A stretch of DNA of 26,788 nucleotides from Chalciporus piperatus (lineage: Eukaryota > Basidiomycota > Agaricomycetes > Boletales > Boletaceae). The first letter of the stretch is position 1. Each line of letters opens with the position of its first letter. A program made the position numbers and the translations under genes. The DNA is taken from NCBI GenBank assembly GCA_038093975.1, contig JBBPTG010000305.1, positions 1-26,788 of the forward strand. Direction: 5' to 3'. This document shows positions 9,667-22,034 of the stretch, one piece after another. The notes below the pieces were generated by a model. It searched no databases. It worked only from the letters and a program-made list of their open reading frames with translations, and was not told the DNA's origin.

Positions 9667-9720
9667 CATCAGCAACACTGCAAAAAGTCTGAAGTTACTA
9701 GAATGACTGGATCACTTAAA
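9667..9720 (+). repeat. Left 54-bp terminal inverted repeat
   Basis: Matches the reverse complement of 12343-12396 at 52 of 54 positions; mismatches at A/G in TACTRGAATG and C/G in ATCASTTAAA. Confidence 0.85.
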
Positions 9721-10170
9721 CCAGTATGCCAGTTGCTCAGTTGCCCAGTCATCCAGTCAGCCAGTCATTTCAGTAATCTCATTAGTTCATTAGCCCAGTC
9801 ATGAAGACATTTCAGTTGTCTCAGTGGCCCAGTCATTCAGTCATCCAGTCATTTCAGTAGTCTCAGTTATCCAGTTATCCAGTTATCCAGTTATCCAGTC
9901 ATTTCAGTAGTCCAGTGGTCCAGTGGTCCAGTCAATCCAGTCATCCAGTCACTTCAGTAATCCAGCCAGTCCAGTTATACAGTCATCCTAGTAATCCAGT
10001 CACTCCAGTAATCCAGTCACTCAGGGGTCCAGTAATCTAGTCACTCTAGTAACCCAGCCACTCAGGGGTCCAGTAATCCAGTCACTCCAGTAACCCAGCC
10101 ACTCAGGGGTCCAGTAATCCAGTCACTCCAGTAACCCAGCCACTCAGGGGTTCAGCAATCCAGTACCCAA
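9721..10170. repeat. Left satellite arm (CCAGTCATCCAGT)
   Basis: Irregular repeat of CCAGTCAT, CCAGTTAT and TTTCAGTAGT. Towards the core it becomes a longer unit of about 50 bp containing CCAGCCACTCAGGGGTCCAG, present three to four times (10010-10160). Confidence 0.8.
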
Positions 10171-10234
10171 TTACTATTTCACTATATTTTACAATTATTT
10201 CACACTTTATGTAGTTCAGGAGTTCAGGAAAAAT

Positions 10235-10735
10235 GTGAAATATATCTGTCTAACTAGTACATGTATTGTGCTACAGTGGGAAGTGGTGGTGGGGCACGAG
10301 TGGCTATGTAGCATGTTCGAGGTTAGGATGTGGTGGTGGGTAAGTAAAAACTCACCTAGTGAGGCCGGCGGGGCTGTTGAGCCCTCGCCGGCCGTGTTCA
10401 AGTGGGTGTTGAAGGTGGGAGGTGGTGATGGGGCACGAGCAGCTATGTTTGAGGTAAGTGGATGTGGTGGTGGGGGAGTGGAAACCCACCTAGTAAGGCT
10501 GGCGGGGCTGTTGAGCCCTCGCCGGCCGTGTTGTTCGAGTTGGTGTTAAGGTGACTCAGAGGTGGTGGTGGTGGTGGGGGAGACTCGAGTGGCTGTTGGT
10601 GAGATGAGTGGGTGGGTCAGTGAGTGAGTAGAAACTCACTTTGCATTGCCGGCAGGGCTGTTGAGCCCTCGCCGGCCATGTTGCTGTTGTTGTTGAGGTG
10701 TGGTGTAGTGGTGTGAGACAGACTCGAAGAAGTGG
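10235..10735. repeat. Second hairpin array, three units
   Basis: Cores GCCGGCGGGGCTGTTGAGCC, or one-base variants, begin at about 10361, 10497 and 10647, each closing with CTCGCCGGCC. The units have the same GGTGGTGGTG and GTGAGT context as 5476-6240, but are shorter (about 136-150 bp) and more uniform in the core. Confidence 0.8.
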
Positions 10736-11460
10736 CGCGGCAAGTTCAACTTGGTCACGTGACTTTTTCGCGCGGATTTTTTGTCAAGTCCGAGCATTAG
10801 GGAAATGTAGCTACACTTTATTAGGATCTTCTACACTAGATAGCTACCATATTTTTTGTACACTTGTGTATGCCTTTTTGTACACTTTCAATAGGTTTGA
10901 TCTCCACATACTTTGCTACACTTTTAACTACACAATTACTGCGCTTTTTTGTACACTTTTGCTACACTAACCTAATACACTTTCCCACACTTGTAACTAC
11001 ACATTTACTACGCTTTTTTGTACACTATTGCTACACTCAATCTAGCTACACTTTCCTACACATTTGATTCAAGTTTTACTACGCTTTTTTGTTACACTTT
11101 GCTACACTCAATCACTACACTTGTAACTACACTTTTAGTACGCTTTTTTGTACACTTTAGCTACACTCAATCTAGCTATACTTTCCCACACTCTTGACTA
11201 CACTTTTACTACACTTTTTTGTACACTTTAGCTACACTCAATCTAGCTACACTTTCCCACACTTGGACTACACTTTTACTACACTTTTTTTGTACATTTT
11301 GCTCACTCAATCTAGCTATACTTTCCCACACTTGTAACTACACTTTTACTACACTTTCTTTGTACACTTCACTACACTCAATCCTAATACCCTTTCCCAC
11401 ATTGTTAACTACACTTTTAGTACACATTTTTGTGGACTTTAGCTATAATCCATCCTATGA
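10736..11460. repeat. Second CACGTGAC spacer and TACACTTT minisatellite
   Basis: The spacer at 10738-10805 parallels 6241-6310 (GGCAAGTTCAACTTGGTCAC, GCGCGGATTTTT, ATTAGGGAAA). It is followed by about 650 bp of TACACTTTTACTACGCTTTT-type repeats with recurring CACTCAATCTAGCTACACTT. It ends at ATGAATG..AAATGTCACTAATT, as the first copy does at 6700-6724. Confidence 0.75.
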
Positions 11461-11494
11461 ATGATTATAAAATGTCACTAATTAGAATGACTCT

Positions 11495-12342
11495 ATTAGA
11501 TGACTGAGTAGTACTGGAGTGATTGGGTGAGCTGAGGGCTGGGTAACTGGATAACTGGTATGACTGGTGTGACTGAAGTGACTGGATTACTGGACCACAG
11601 GATGACTGGATTACTGGAGTGACTGGATTACTGAGGTGACTGGATTACTGGAGTGACTTGTGTGACTGGAGTGACTGGAGTGACTGGAGTGACTGGAGTG
11701 ACTGGAGTGACTGGATTACTGGACCACTGAGTGACTGGATTACTGAAGTGACTGGATTAACTGGAGTGACTGGATTACTGGAGTGACTTATGTGATTTAT
11801 GTGACTGGGGTGACTGGAGTGACTGGATTACTGAACCACTGAGTGACTAGATTACTGGAATACTGGAATACTGGATGACTGGAGTAATGAGACAACTGGA
11901 TTGCTGGATGACTAGGGCACTGGGCTACTAGGCTACTGAGATAACTGGATGACTGGAACACTGGGCTACTGAGCTACTGAGACTACTGAAGTGACTGGAT
12001 GATTGGATGACTGGGCTGCTGGGTTACTGGAACTACTGGATGACTGGATGACTGGGATGCTGAGACTACTGAAGTAACTGGATAACTTGATGACTTGATG
12101 ACTGGGCTACTAAGACTACTACTGGATGACTGGGCTGCTGGATGACTGAGACTACTGAGACTACTGGATGACTGAATGACTGAGCTACTGAAGCTACTGA
12201 AATGACTGGATGACTGGGCCACTAGGCCACTGGGTTACTAAGACTACTGAAACTACTTGATGACTGGGTGACTAGGTTACTGAAACTACTGAAACTACTG
12301 AAACTACTGAAACTACTGGTTACTGGGCCACTGGACTACTGA
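11495..12342. repeat. Right satellite arm (ACTGGATGACTGG)
   Basis: An irregular satellite of ACTGG, GAGTGACTGG, GGATTACTGG and GAGACTACTGA units, including five consecutive GAGTGACTG units at about 11665-11712. It is the reverse-complement style of the left arm but nearly twice as long, so the arms are not collinear copies. Confidence 0.8.
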
Positions 12343-12396
12343 TTTAACTGATCCAGTCATTCCAGTAACTTCAGACTTTTTGCAGTGTTGCTGATG
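12343..12396 (-). repeat. Right 54-bp terminal inverted repeat
   Basis: Partner of 9667-9720; ends GCAGTGTTGCTGATG at 12396. Confidence 0.85.
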
Positions 12397-12869: not shown

Positions 12870-13596
12870 TAGTGATTAAAAGTCCGGTCCGGTCCGGTCT
12901 TTGCCTTATTTGGAAAGGACCGGACCGTAACCAGTCTTTCCTAATCGGGAAATCAGAAAAAACCGAACCAAACTGATGAAGACTGGTCCTAAACGGTCCT
13001 TTATCAGTTGCAACCGGTCTAGGACCGGTTACAACCGATATTTCGCTTAGCGTGGGAGAAATAAAACATAGTACCGGTTCCTGGCTACAAATCGGTCCCT
13101 GGGCCAAGCAAAACGGTTCACACGCCATAGAAATATGACCATTTCAAAACAGCATGTCTTTTGTAGTGATACATGAGATATTATCAAATTACGTGTGACG
13201 GCAAGACCAATCATAGACTCAATTCTCAACACATACTAATAAAATATACATCAATATGTGACTCAATGAGTGTATATACATGATAGAATGAATTGTATGA
13301 CATGTCAATTAATATTATCATCAGCTAACCTCAATATCTCACCAAAACATCCAATAAAGTCAGACAAACTTGGGAAAAATCAGGGAAAAATCAGGAAAAA
13401 TCAGAAAAAATAGGGTAATATATCGGAGGTGGCTGTGCATCGGTTGCAACCGGTTGCAACTGGTTTTTTTTAGAATTTTTGGTCCTGTCAAAATGCAGGA
13501 CCAAGACCAAGAGTTGCAATTAACAGTTGCCGACAGTCTAAGTTGGGTTGGGTTGTTGGTCTTTTGACGGTCCTAGGACTGGATCTGACAACACTA
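12870..13596 (+). mobile_element. hAT-type MITE, family 1, copy 1
   Basis: 727 bp bounded by TAGTGATTAAAAGTCCGG at the left and GACAACACTA at the right, with a perfect 8-bp target-site duplication GCAGTAAG (12862-12869 and 13597-13604). The 8-bp duplication and TAGTG termini fit hAT. Subterminal regions are rich in CCGGTCC and GGTTGCAACCGG. The core is AT-rich without a gene; open frames inside are shared by all copies only because the sequences are. It is close to copies at 15567-16294 (reverse) and 21284-22034. Confidence 0.92.
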
Positions 13597-15566: not shown

Positions 15567-16294
15567 TAGTGTTCTCAGGTCCAGTCCTAGGACCGTCAAA
15601 AGACCAACAACCCAACCCAACTTAGACTGTCGGCAACTGTTAATTGCAACTCTTGGTCTTGGTCCTGCATTTTGACAGGACCAAAAATTCTAAAAAAAAC
15701 CAGTTGCAACCAGTTGCAACCGATGCACAGCCACCTCCGATATATTACCCTATTTTTTCTGATTTTCCCTGATTTTCCCCTGATTTTTCCCAAGTTTGTC
15801 TGACTTTATTGGATGTTTTGGTGAGATATTGAGGTTAGCTGATGATAATATTAATTGACATGTCATACAATTCATTCTATCATGTATATACACTCATTGA
15901 GTCACATATTGATGTATATTTTATTAGTATGTGTTGAGAATTGAGTCTATGATTGGTCTTGCCGTCACACGTAATTTGATAATATCTCATGTATCACTAC
16001 AAAAGACATGCTGTTTTGAAATGGTCATATTTCTATGGCGTGTGAACCGTTTTGCTTGACCCAGGGACCGATTTGTAGCCAGGAACCGGTACTATGTTTT
16101 ATTTCTCCCACGCTAAGCGAAATATCGGTTGTAACCGGTCCTAGACCGGTTGCAACTGATAAAGGACCGTTTAGGACCAGTCTTCATCAGTTTGGTTCGG
16201 TTTTTTCTGATTTCCCGATTAGGAAAGACCGGTTACGGTCCGGTCCTTTCCAAATAAGGCAAAAGACCGGACTGGACTGGACTTTCAATCACTA
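15567..16294 (-). mobile_element. hAT-type MITE, family 1, copy 2 (reverse)
   Basis: 728 bp, reverse orientation relative to copy 1: starts TAGTGTTCTCAGGTCC and ends CTTTCAATCACTA. Perfect 8-bp target-site duplication AGTATGAG (15559-15566 and 16295-16302). It is inserted in exon 2 of the Crypton gene, after the codons for FLEYE. Copies 1 and 2 face each other across about 2 kb and could pair as a long hairpin in a read-through RNA. Confidence 0.92.
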
Positions 16295-16905: not shown

Positions 16906-18652
16906 ATGAGATGACGAGGGAGAAGGTGCGTAGAGTGTATTATTTATGGTTCACGGGCGGCCTTGACTCATGTTCTCTTGCCTTGCGCTCGCAGAAAAAG
17001 CGAGGCAGTCAGTCTGAGACCATCGCTGACTCATTGGTTGGGCAGTCGCAGATCACCCAGGCCATCAGTGCCCTCGAGGACCGCCGTCGGGATGAACAAC
17101 ATCTCTACCCCAACAACCGCGATGTGCAGTGCAGACTCCGTGATGACATCCGTGTTCGTGCCATTGAGTCGGCTGCCAAGCACAACGAGCCCAAGCGCAT
17201 CTAGGCAGTAGCAGGGGTAAAACCCCGGGTATCATAGCACATACCCGGACCCAGACCCGGGAAATACCCATACCCAAACACCGGGTCTGGGTCATGACGT
17301 AGGCCAGTGAAAAAATACCCGAGGGTATACCCGTACTTGGGTATACCCTAGGGTATTAAGGTATAATGGCAATGACGACAGAGTAATGTACGATACAACT
17401 AATTAATGATGATTTGGTCCCAGCCATCTTCGAGCTCAGTCTCCGCTTCATCCCTGATATCTGGCAGCTCGCTCACAGACCTGATGTCCTCATTCTTGAT
17501 AAGATTGAGTTTACGCCACATGCCGAGGCAGAGGAGCGCTCGAGTGGATTGTGCATTGAGGCGGGACCGAACATGGGAAAGGAGCAGGCGGCCGCGGCTG
17601 AATAGCCTTTCAACATCAACAGAGGTAGCTACAGAAACATTATTAATATGGTAGAACAAGCTGAAGAACATATAAAACTTACCTGGTATTGTTAAATAGT
17701 CGAGGGCCATCCGAGAGAGTCGAGGGTAACTTTGACGATGTTCGTACCACCACGTGATCGGATCGGTAATGTGTTCAACATCTGTGTTCAGGTACCGCTC
17801 GAGCTCAGACCCTAGCTCAGCGGGCTTTGGTGGGGCAAGAGCGGGGAGATTGTCAAACATGTTGGCAGTCTGGATCACAGTAAATTCTGTGTACATAGTA
17901 GTGGAGCTGAATAGGCACTCACCTTTTCGCTTTTGTGCTTCACCGGTTCGATCTCCTCAATGTCCAAGTCCATAGCTTTGTCGGTGTCATTGGTGCTAGC
18001 ATATGAACATTTGAATTCCTCCTTCACAAGTTCTTGTGCTGTTTTGATCCAATCGTCCTGCCAGTGAGCTGCTTTGAAGTACGAAAGCTTGTGTCGTGGA
18101 TGGAGTACTAACAGGCTATCAATACAACATTTGGGTATAATAACCAATTAGTTACATGTACCCATAGCAATGTGATATACCTCAGAGTCGTCAGTGAGTG
18201 AATAGTAGTGGTTAAGCGTCTTCCTAGAATGTGAAACGGCGGCGCGAATGGACCGAAGGTACTTGGTGTCGCGCGAGTACGTCGTAAGCTCCTTGTCGAT
18301 ACAATCCATGGCTGGAATGACGGTTGCAAGGTTTGGAGTTGACCGCAAGAAGAATGTGGTAGCATCCTTCAGCACCTGAACAAGGCAAGTGAGTGTTTTG
18401 TTACGGCGAGTATCTACAAGTTCTCTCAGCGCGCTGTAAGTATTCTGACATTCTGTGAGAACTAACCTTATCTTTTATCCCAAATTCTTCCAGCATCGAC
18501 GCAAACACTGTCGCCAATTCAAGTCCCGTGTGCGACTAACAAACAAGTTGGATCAATCATCACCGTGACTGGCATGCATTCCAAGTAAGTCCTTACCTTT
18601 GGTACCTCGATAACGTCTAATGGCATGCTTATTGGCTGACCTTTCACAAGGT

Positions 18653-19221
18653 GTAGCTACTTATTTGGGATGCCGACGGCGCAGCCCATGTGAATATTGT
18701 AGGGATTGCGACCGGCGAGCCAACATCGGCCCATATGGGTGCTCGGCAAATTGACTGATGGGCCGAAATGGGTGGTCGGTCACTGACCCATGGGCCCATT
18801 GGTTGTATATGAGAGTTGTAATACAAGTGTCAGTGATTGGATAGTGTTTTTTAGCCTTCGGTATTTTGCTATGATGTCTCGGCGTGTCGCTATTTTGCTA
18901 TTTGATGTCTTGGCATGTTGCTATTTGCTGTTTGATGTCTCGGTGTGTCGCTATTTCGCTATTTGATGTCTCGGCATGTCGCTATTCGCTGTTTGATGTC
19001 TCAGCATGTCGCTATTTGCTATTTTGATGTCTCAGTATATATGTCTCAGTATTTTGCTATTGTTGTCATCACTGAGCAGAATCAGTGATATAGTGAACAG
19101 ATCCTTGGCATTCCTCAGCATTAATTATGCCAAAGGTTACTACCAGTGAAATTCCATTGCCAAAGTCATTTCTGTAATTTAGAGCATGTGTAGAGTATTT
19201 AGGCAAACAAGTACAATGAGC
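18653..19221 (+). repeat. Left foldback arm
   Basis: Pairs with 19362-19930 with constant coordinate sum 38583, so no indels. From 18872 to 19060 it contains six units of 30-31 bp of the type GATGTCTCGGCATGTCGCTA, which recur mirrored in the other arm. Confidence 0.92.
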
Positions 19222-19922
19222 AAAATGCATCGCCGAGCAAAATCGGCGATGTTGCCGGCATATCCTTGGTGTCCCTCTGTATTAATGTCGCCAGAGGTTG
19301 TTACTGAAATTCCATCGCCAGAGTTCTTTTTATGTTTTGGAGTGTATTTAGAGGATTTGGTGCTCATTGTACTTGTTTGCCTAAATACTCTACACATGCT
19401 CTAAATTACAGAAATGACTTTGGCAATGGAATTTCACTGGTAGTAACCTTTGGCATAATTAATGCTGAGGAATGCCAAGGATCTGTTCACTATATCACTG
19501 ATTCTGCTCAGTGATGACAACAATAGCAAAATACTGAGACATATATACTGAGACATCAAAATAGCAAATAGCGACATGCTGAGACATCAAACAGCGAATA
19601 GCGACATGCCGAGACATCAAATAGCGAAATAGCGACACACCGAGACATCAAACAGCAAATAGCAACATGCCAAGACATCAAATAGCAAAATAGCGACACG
19701 CCGAGACATCATAGCAAAATACCGAAGGCTCAAAAACACTATCCAATCACTGGCACTTGTATTACAACTCTCATATACAACCAATGGGCCCATGGGTCAG
19801 TGACCGACCACCCATTTCGGCCCATCAGTCAATTTGCCGAGCACCCATATGGGCCGATGTTGGCTCGCCGGTCGCAATCCCTACAATATTCACATGGGCT
19901 GCGCCGTCGGCATCCCAAATAA
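18661..19922. mobile_element. Foldback element with near-perfect 569-bp arms
   Basis: 1262 bp lying in the hAT transposase gene, starting TTATTTGGGATGCCG and ending as its reverse complement. It is flanked on both sides by GTAGCTAC (18653-18660 and 19923-19930), an 8-bp target duplication that is itself a palindrome, so duplication and arm cannot be told apart. Including it, the arms 18653-19221 and 19362-19930 pair base for base without a gap; reading them by eye I find two mismatches. The 140-bp loop is a diverged copy of the inner arm. There is no gene; the two mirror-image 72-codon frames beginning MCRVFRQTS are a result of symmetry. Confidence 0.9.
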
Positions 19923-19930
19923 GTAGCTAC
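19362..19930 (-). repeat. Right foldback arm
   Basis: Reverse complement of 18653-19221. Differences seen: T/C in AAGTGYCAGTG and T/G in GTGTTTTTKAGCC. Confidence 0.92.
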
Positions 19931-21283
19931 ATGGGGTGGACCTTTGTGCCCTAGGTGGACTGAAAAGGCAACGAACGCGCGATGGTTTGGTGATGTCCAT
20001 GCATCGGTTGTAAAGTTGAGCTTTCCATTGTATTCCTAGTAAATAAATGAGTAGTATTCTTGATTTAATCTCATTCGACTAACCCGTAACATTTTAGCAA
20101 TCTGAATATGGGTGCATGCAAAAACGAGTCGAACATCACGCGATACGGTTGCGCGAGACGGTATGTAATATTCTGGGCGACCAGTCTTCATGAGGGACTG
20201 AAATCCGCGGTCTTCGACTATTGCAAATGGTCGTAGACTTTCAGCAACCCAGCGAACAATTTCAGCACTACAAATTACTCTGTTATTCAAGGCCAATGTG
20301 TCCAAGTGTTCGAGCTCACCGTGTCTCTTGCTGGGTATGCTGCCGGTTGGAGTATGTTACCTTTCCTTTCCCCTTTCTCTCGAATGCCGCGGTAATGGGA
20401 ACAAAATTTTTGACAATCTTGGTACATACTTCATTCGCGTCATTGGCGTCGTCTGCGACTGATAGTTCTTCGGATCCCCAGCCGCGGCACGACTTAACAT
20501 GCTTGCGCATGTTACTTGTGGACCGGGTGTCTTGTTTATCGAGGAACCGACGGACGGTTGCCTTACAGCCACCTGCACTGCACCTGAACTCATGTGCACG
20601 CCGGCCATTGATTTCAACAATCTGTGGCTTCGGGTTAAAAAAGGCATGGACTGGTGAGGTCCAGCCCTTCATCTCGTGTTCTGTGATTTGTATTCAGCTA
20701 ATTAAAACCATTGTAAAATAATAACAGCATACCTAATTCATCCTCAGGGCTTGTAGGCTCTGGGGATGCTGATGGTGCTCATTCTTGACCCCCAACACTT
20801 GCTGCAGGTACAGGTGGATCATCTTCATCAGGTACCTCCTCAACAGTCGCGCGCCGTGCGAAGAAAGATGTCGACACCTTGGCGCTCCCAGACTGCGGGG
20901 TCAAACGTGCCCTTTTGGGTGCGGTTTCTTCACGTTCGACATCCTTCTGATTAGCCGCTGTCTCTTCAACGTGTCCATCATTTTTTCTCTTGGTTGCCTT
21001 CCTGCCTTGCCGCTCTTTGAGTGCCACCCTTGCTTTGTTGGTCAGCTTCACAGCACGTTTCGATGTCACCTCTGAGGACATGTTGGGTGGGGTTTGGGTA
21101 GAGTTTCATAACTTGTGAATACTTGTGAATACTTTGCTGAATGCTATGCAGTCTAGTCTCACAGCCTAGTGTACATAGCCTCTGAGTCGGATTCTTTATG
21201 ACCGTGCGGGTTACCCGGACCCGTGATCTTGCCTAAGCGCATCAAGTCAGCGCAGACTCTCAAGGCATCAGGGACATCATCGG

Positions 21284-22034
21284 TAGTGATTAAAAGTCCG
21301 GTCCGGTCCGGTCTTTGCCTTATTTGGGAAGGACCGGACCGTAACCGGTCTTTTCTAATCAGGAAATCAGAAAAAACTGAACCAAACTGATCAAGACTGG
21401 TCCTAAACGGTCCTTTATCGGTTGCAACCGGTCTAGGACCGGTTACAACCGATATTTCGCTTAGAGTGGGAGAAATCAAAAATAGTATTGGTTCCTGGCT
21501 ACAAATCGGTCCCTGGGTCAAACAAAACGGTTCACACACCATAGAGATATGACCATTTCAAAACAGCATGTCTTTTGTAGTGATACATGAGATATTATCA
21601 AATTACGTGTGATGGCAAGACCAATCATAGACTCAATTCTCAACACATACTAATAAAATATACATCAATATGTGACTCAATGAGTGTATATACATGATAG
21701 AATGAATTGTATGACATGTCAATTAATATTATCATCAGCTAACCTCAATATCTCACCAAAACATCCAATAAAGTCGGAAAAACTTGGGAAAAATCAGGGA
21801 AAAATCAGGGAAAAACAGAAAAAATAGGGTAATATATAGGGGGTGGCTGTGCATCGGTTGCAACCGGTTGCAACTGGTTTTTTTTTAGAATTTTCGGTCC
21901 TGTCAAAATGCAGGACCAAGACCAAGACCGTCAAAGACCAGTTGCAACCAGTTGCAATTAACAATTGCCGACGGTCTAAGTTGGGTTGGGTTGTTGGTCT
22001 TTTGACGGTCCTAGGACTGGACCTGACAACACTA
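21284..22034 (+). mobile_element. hAT-type MITE, family 1, copy 3
   Basis: 751 bp, same orientation and ends as copy 1 (TAGTGATTAAAAGTCC ... GACAACACTA). Target-site duplication ATCATCGG (21276-21283) against ATCATTGG (22035-22042), 7 of 8 matching. It is about 24 bp longer than copy 1, through an extra GACCGTCAAAGACC-type segment near its right end. It is inserted in the Crypton gene exactly at an exon end: the intron donor GTATGC follows the right duplication directly at 22043. Confidence 0.92.

Follow-up and report, generated by a model that had tools for sequence, protein, structure and literature searches.

The near-perfect palindrome that splits a hAT transposase gene of Chalciporus piperatus is, as we consider likely, a non-autonomous Galileo-like foldback transposon that would be mobilised by a KDZ transposase, probably of Kyakuja type, and whose A-side arm was overwritten from its C-side arm. 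The stretch of DNA analysed here, called the window in the following, is contig JBBPTG010000305.1 (C305) at its full length of 26,788 nucleotides; the genome comprises 35.5 Mb in 484 contigs, and other contigs are named in the same way. The family of the window element has at least three more two-ended copies. Respective coordinates are provided in Table 1.

Table 1. Coordinates of the foldback element, its host gene and the genes of the KDZ-bearing region (window positions unless contig C132 is named).
Feature	Position	Strand	Remark
Host hAT transposase gene	17393..20669	-	interrupted within a conserved coding block (window 18588-20044, element excluded)
Left target site duplication GACCTTT	18638..18644	+	7/7 identical to 19939-19945
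Complete foldback element	18645..19938	+	1294 bp, non-coding; CAC...GTG tips adjoin the duplications
A-type tip CACAAGGT	18645..18652	+	8 bp, left end of the element
Left arm (I2)	18652..19222	+	head of ~413 bp (tandem repeats of ~30 bp) followed by a single ~157-bp unit
30/61-bp tandem repeat in left arm head	18865..19033	+	mirror at 19550-19718
Spacer	19223..19360	+	second ~157-bp arm unit, shortened
Right arm (I2)	19361..19931	-	569/571 identical to the left arm
C-type tip CACCCCAT	19931..19938	-	8 bp, read inward from the right end
Right target site duplication GACCTTT	19939..19945	+	7/7 identical to 18638-18644
C132 region, TET/JBP gene	57022-57414 (C132)		
C132 region, KDZ gene	60012-60681 (C132)		
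C132 region, CxC2 gene	60732-61625 (C132)		

The inverted repeat (I2) has arms of 571 bp around a spacer of 138 bp. This is far beyond the length expected by chance for an inverted repeat, i.e., the palindrome is real. The two arms differ at two positions (18830, T/C; 18852, T/G) and show no indels, which confirms the near-perfect palindrome described in the initial annotation. Its location (18653-19930) holds as well, but the arms extend one base further per side than the 569 bp given there. As a single RNA strand, the 1294-nt element is predicted to fold into one long hairpin (raw MFE -1179.7 kcal/mol). All arms of the family follow one plan, that is, a head of about 413 bp with 30-bp tandem repeats is followed by units of about 157 bp, with several units per arm in the longer copies; the copy number of the 30/61-bp tandem repeat in the head varies among foldback copies. 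The spacer of the window copy matches the corresponding unit of the other four copies with 94-96% identity and unit 1 with 70%. Since the spacer is thus itself a second unit, the window copy resembles a longer foldback that has undergone internal deletion.

Searching the genome with the arm as query resulted in at least 39 matches. The terminal 21-mer occurs 12 times exactly, while a reversed control pattern gives 6 matches at up to three mismatches. Beside the window copy, we identified three two-ended copies (in C13, C10 and C306, with 4.5 kb for C306 and 1.9 and 3.0 kb for the other two) and one single end (C205). The boundaries of the window element match those of the other two-ended copies, and directly outside of CAC..GTG three of the four show a perfect 7/7 duplication: GACCTTT in the window, GTGCGGA in C13 and CTTGAAC in C10. 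For the window, the flank match falls to 3/6, 3/8 and 2/9 when lengths of 6, 8 and 9 are used. The further copies anticipated by the initial annotation do exist, but their flanking duplications are 7 bp instead of the expected 8 bp; the window element likewise departs from the 8-bp target duplications of hAT elements. Every two-ended copy carries one A-type tip (4/4, with the variant CACAAGAT in C10) and one C-type tip (4/4). The A-type tip is also present at both ends of the KDZ region of C132, the C-type tip at the single end in C205 and at an end in C170. The longest stop-to-stop frame spans 78 aa in the window element; in the remaining three two-ended copies it reaches 85-111 aa. Long inverted arms, internal tandem repeats and non-coding sequence place the family in the foldback structural class, as do dispersed copies with target duplications (3/4 at 7/7; 3/7 for C306).

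The flanks of the 4.5-kb copy in C306 (L012:950-5445) are unmatched (3/7) and suggest a possible recombination or assembly breakpoint. Its right flank is the interior of a KDZ-type element with an unoccupied counterpart in C132; its left flank is unrelated. A recombinant, or a join made in assembly, would be expected to look like this. Another foldback family, unrelated to the first, was also observed (L033:5847-7203 in C170 and L034:1492-3378 in C205). In C170, it has 599-bp arms that are 98% identical around a 159-bp spacer; in C205, it lies inside the core of a window-family copy, i.e., a palindrome within a palindrome.

Next, we compared the arms of the family with each other. Those of the window are 99.6% identical (569-column comparison); the nearest other arm is the C-end arm of C306 (98.5%), and the rest range from 91.8 to 97.0%. 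We counted private states, that is, columns in which all other arms agree and at least four of them have a letter. The window arms share five private substitutions, while one is found in the A-side arm only and one in the C-side arm only, and a tree pairs both arms at 100/99 support (with 4/6 inner branches open). Given these counts and this pairing, lineage-specific changes were apparently copied from arm to arm. The sequences thus indicate that one window arm was copied onto the other after the copy had diverged, with the tips staying different. The copying must have stopped near the A tip, because that tip is still of A type. In C13 and C306, 23 columns distinguish A from C arms, and at all of them the A-side arm of the window shows the C-end state; 21 of them fall into one block (427-499) and are hence not independent, and this block probably reflects a single difference in unit order. 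In the other copies, shared versus single private states amount to 2 vs. 3+0 (C13), 2 vs. 5+6 (C10) and 1 vs. 2+0 (C306), and the tree joins the A arm of C13 to that of C306 (100/100), apart from their own C arms. Homogenisation is therefore marked in the window copy only. Among the two explanations for the arm identity offered initially (a very young foldback or arms homogenised by conversion), the data favour the latter.

To identify a possible enzyme source, we followed the ends. The first ~153 bp of the element are 86-88% identical to four ends, i.e., two in C132 and one each in C170 and C306. The two in C132 are inverted ends (90.5% alike over 590 columns) that flank a region of about 18 kb (C132:49502-67712) with the KDZ, CxC2 and TET/JBP genes of Table 1; its KDZ domain shows in-frame TGA codons, possibly introns. 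We rejected this region as one intact insertion, given that both of its tips are of A type and its flanks (AGTGCCA and CATCCTT) are unmatched. No GTG-plus-duplication partner for the C132 tips was found within the stretches examined, and a duplication search for the other end in eight end-bearing stretches gave no perfect partner. The C170 end has a C tip and, across 631 columns, 92.7% likeness to one of the C132 ends. In C103, C261 and C403, a diverged family carries the related tip CACAAGGAATGGCACC; among the matches listed, all of which are to C103, tblastx shows C103 to be colinear with C132 from the end to the CxC2 region. Ends and transposase genes thus travel together in two diverged elements.

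For the CxC2 protein of the C132 region, the best matches with a name are from Paxillus (4 of the 10 proteins listed), others being from Scleroderma, Fomitopsis and Exidia, in keeping with a mushroom-forming host close to Boletales. Pfam matched 4 of 10 ORFs from end-bearing stretches (3/10 strictly; six without match), namely RVT or related retrotransposon domains twice, CxC2, and a gag domain below the cut-off (L038:5409-6632). The genome contains at least 75 KDZ matches, and another KDZ copy among these could be the partner. Convergent KDZ and TET/JBP genes also mark a multi-copy family in C178 (L055), C230 (L056) and others, with C178 and C230 being 98% alike; it was discarded as partner since its aligned part does not end in the tips of the window family.

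For Kyakuja elements, PMC12730594 (section 3.2.1) reports duplications of 7 bp and CA..TG ends, but no TIRs. The window family shows 7-bp duplications in three of the four two-ended copies and CAC..GTG ends in all four, and it has long inverted arms behind the tips. Because these arms contrast with the published lack of TIRs, we do not file the window element as Kyakuja proper. Nor can the lineage be read from the length of the duplications alone, as the KDZ elements described from Cryptococcus have TIRs and duplications of 4-8 bp while Kyakuja is without TIRs. Based on the link between ends and genes and on the features from literature, we name KDZ as the putative enzyme source with good confidence and the Kyakuja lineage with moderate confidence.

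In the host gene, PF05699 is found in 17399-17956 (E 4.2e-14; minus strand), and colinear hAT relatives in C17 and C21 span the insertion point once the element and one duplication are removed (67-70% DNA identity); tblastx blocks of 49 and 52 aa with 71-73% cross it. The palindrome does thus lie within a hAT gene, as initially annotated. That this gene is clearly degraded, on the other hand, is not what we observe. When the nine homologous blocks are translated (with inferred exon borders), three show one stop each near the block edges and the coding blocks are otherwise open. Two of the stops lie in the first few codons of their block, probably an intron edge, and one lies in the last block, three codons from its end. 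We conclude from these comparisons that the gene was, as far as can be judged from its blocks, broken mainly by the insertion of the element, which suits a recent event.

Further repeats are present in the window. A hAT-like miniature element of about 0.73 kb occurs in three copies, at 12870-13596 (+), 15567-16294 (-) and 21284-22034 (+), with ends TAGTGATT...CAACACTA or variants thereof and 8-bp flanks GCAGTAAG (8/8), AGTATGAG (8/8) and ATCATCGG/ATCATTGG (7/8). The first two copies form the inverted repeat I1 (697 bp, 99%). At 9667-12396, satellite-like arrays of CCAGTCAT type are inverted about a minisatellite of TTTTACTACAC type, which gives a foldback-like structure.

Which other explanations could account for the palindrome? 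If the palindrome were a non-autonomous hAT element inserted into another hAT, the octamer GTAGCTAC would be its 8-bp target duplication. The element does sit in a hAT gene, and the octamer fits nTnnnnAn, the target pattern of hAT elements. But GTAGCTAC is part of the arm in all nine foldback ends (9/9), which are located at different sites. It is thus element sequence and was ruled out as a duplication; moreover, the true duplications are of 7 bp and differ between copies. This explanation is already refuted, and we give it practically no weight. An assembly fold-over deserves consideration in so far as perfect palindromes are a known failure of assembly. Here, the two tips are unlike, the target duplications match and hAT coding sequence continues colinearly on both sides; independent copies also share the plan of the window copy, such that an artefact is very improbable.

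It is also conceivable that the arms are simply young, i.e., that the palindrome was made recently by snap-back or inversion without any conversion of old arms. The arm identity of 99.6% and the restriction of such symmetry to the window copy are in line with this. A simple snap-back, however, would also have copied the A tip and its flank, whereas the right end bears the C tip of the family and the arms cease to match at the tip. If a template switch went back to the original end, the process would hardly differ from the favoured conversion. We consider young arms unlikely. Finally, the transposase might belong to another superfamily with 7-bp duplications (e.g., P/Galileo-like), with the KDZ likeness of ~153 bp being captured sequence. 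Galileo indeed combines long, internally repetitive TIRs with 7-bp duplications (PMC3573991). Tips and terminal sequence are, on the other side, common to KDZ-bearing elements in two diverged families, which renders a foreign transposase rather improbable. We therefore retain the KDZ-mobilised foldback with a converted arm as the preferred reading.

With respect to known systems, the family shares with Kyakuja (PMC12730594) the 7-bp duplications and the CA..TG ends, and its probable partner region holds KDZ, CxC2 and TET/JBP; it differs in being non-coding, 1.3-4.5 kb long and equipped with long inverted arms of tandem units. Galileo (P superfamily, Drosophila; PMC3573991) resembles it in its repetitive TIRs and duplication length, in high arm identity within copies and in chimeric copies with unmatched 7-bp flanks, as seen for C306, and repair of one TIR from another has been proposed. 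However, Galileo has a P-type transposase and belongs to another kingdom, and a fixed pair of unlike tips is not mentioned in the part of PMC3573991 consulted. Tetris, a foldback of Drosophila virilis (PMC4079207), is likewise non-autonomous, with tandem arm units of ~220 bp, and mobilised by the enzyme of another element, but differs in sequence and probable enzyme. KDZ1-3 of Cryptococcus neoformans (PMC12810828) are KDZ transposons with TIRs (139-241 bp), but they are autonomous, 9-11 kb long, carry CxC1 and have duplications of 4-8 bp. Among the papers listed from literature on Kyakuja, fungal and basidiomycete foldbacks, KDZ/Zisupton TIRs and Paxillus KDZ, no KDZ foldback was seen. The window element is real and its boundaries are well defined; it is of a known structural kind, and its probable enzyme source is one for which these listings show no foldback.

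We propose the following origin of the window copy. A large KDZ transposon, most likely of the Kyakuja lineage, would supply the transposase that cuts and pastes the foldback; this enzyme would recognise the tips together with the adjoining ~150 bp. The small form found in the window would derive from a longer foldback with several units, such as the C10 copy, through loss of internal sequence. The C-side arm would then have overwritten the A-side arm by gene conversion or template switch, with a copying tract that ended a few tens of bases from the A tip such that both recognisable ends survived. The two remaining arm mismatches would be later mutations, one per arm.

The initial annotation had also suggested that a hairpin transcript may silence the element's own family as well as the hAT gene. 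The genome contains 17 Piwi and 17 RdRP matches (on 6 contigs each), which makes hairpin silencing possible. We therefore compared the 549 21-mers of the arm with potential targets: every one of the four further foldback copies shares between 180 and 352 of them and the KDZ region of C132 shares 21/549, while the remainder of the window and the hAT loci of C17 contain none (0/549). Judged by these matches, an effect on the foldback family is possible and one on the KDZ partner would be slight; silencing of hAT by homology is not to be expected, which speaks against this part of the suggestion. A wider reading, which we put forward tentatively and regard as rather doubtful, is that the ends in this KDZ lineage are set by the short unlike tips alone, the inverted arms playing no part in this. 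Arm-to-arm copying that halts just inside the tips would then continually build and renew long TIRs, although the published members of this transposon group lack them; the window copy would be a fresh product, and its hairpins may serve as input for RNAi against the family.

These findings would add KDZ transposons of mushroom-type fungi to the foldback life-style, which has been studied best in insects. As the unlike tips mark each end, they show where arm-to-arm copying stopped, such that growth and renewal of long TIRs become testable by sequence alone. Finally, the element offers a natural long hairpin, has further copies and lies in a genome with Piwi and RdRP, such that a role in silencing would be testable with small-RNA data.
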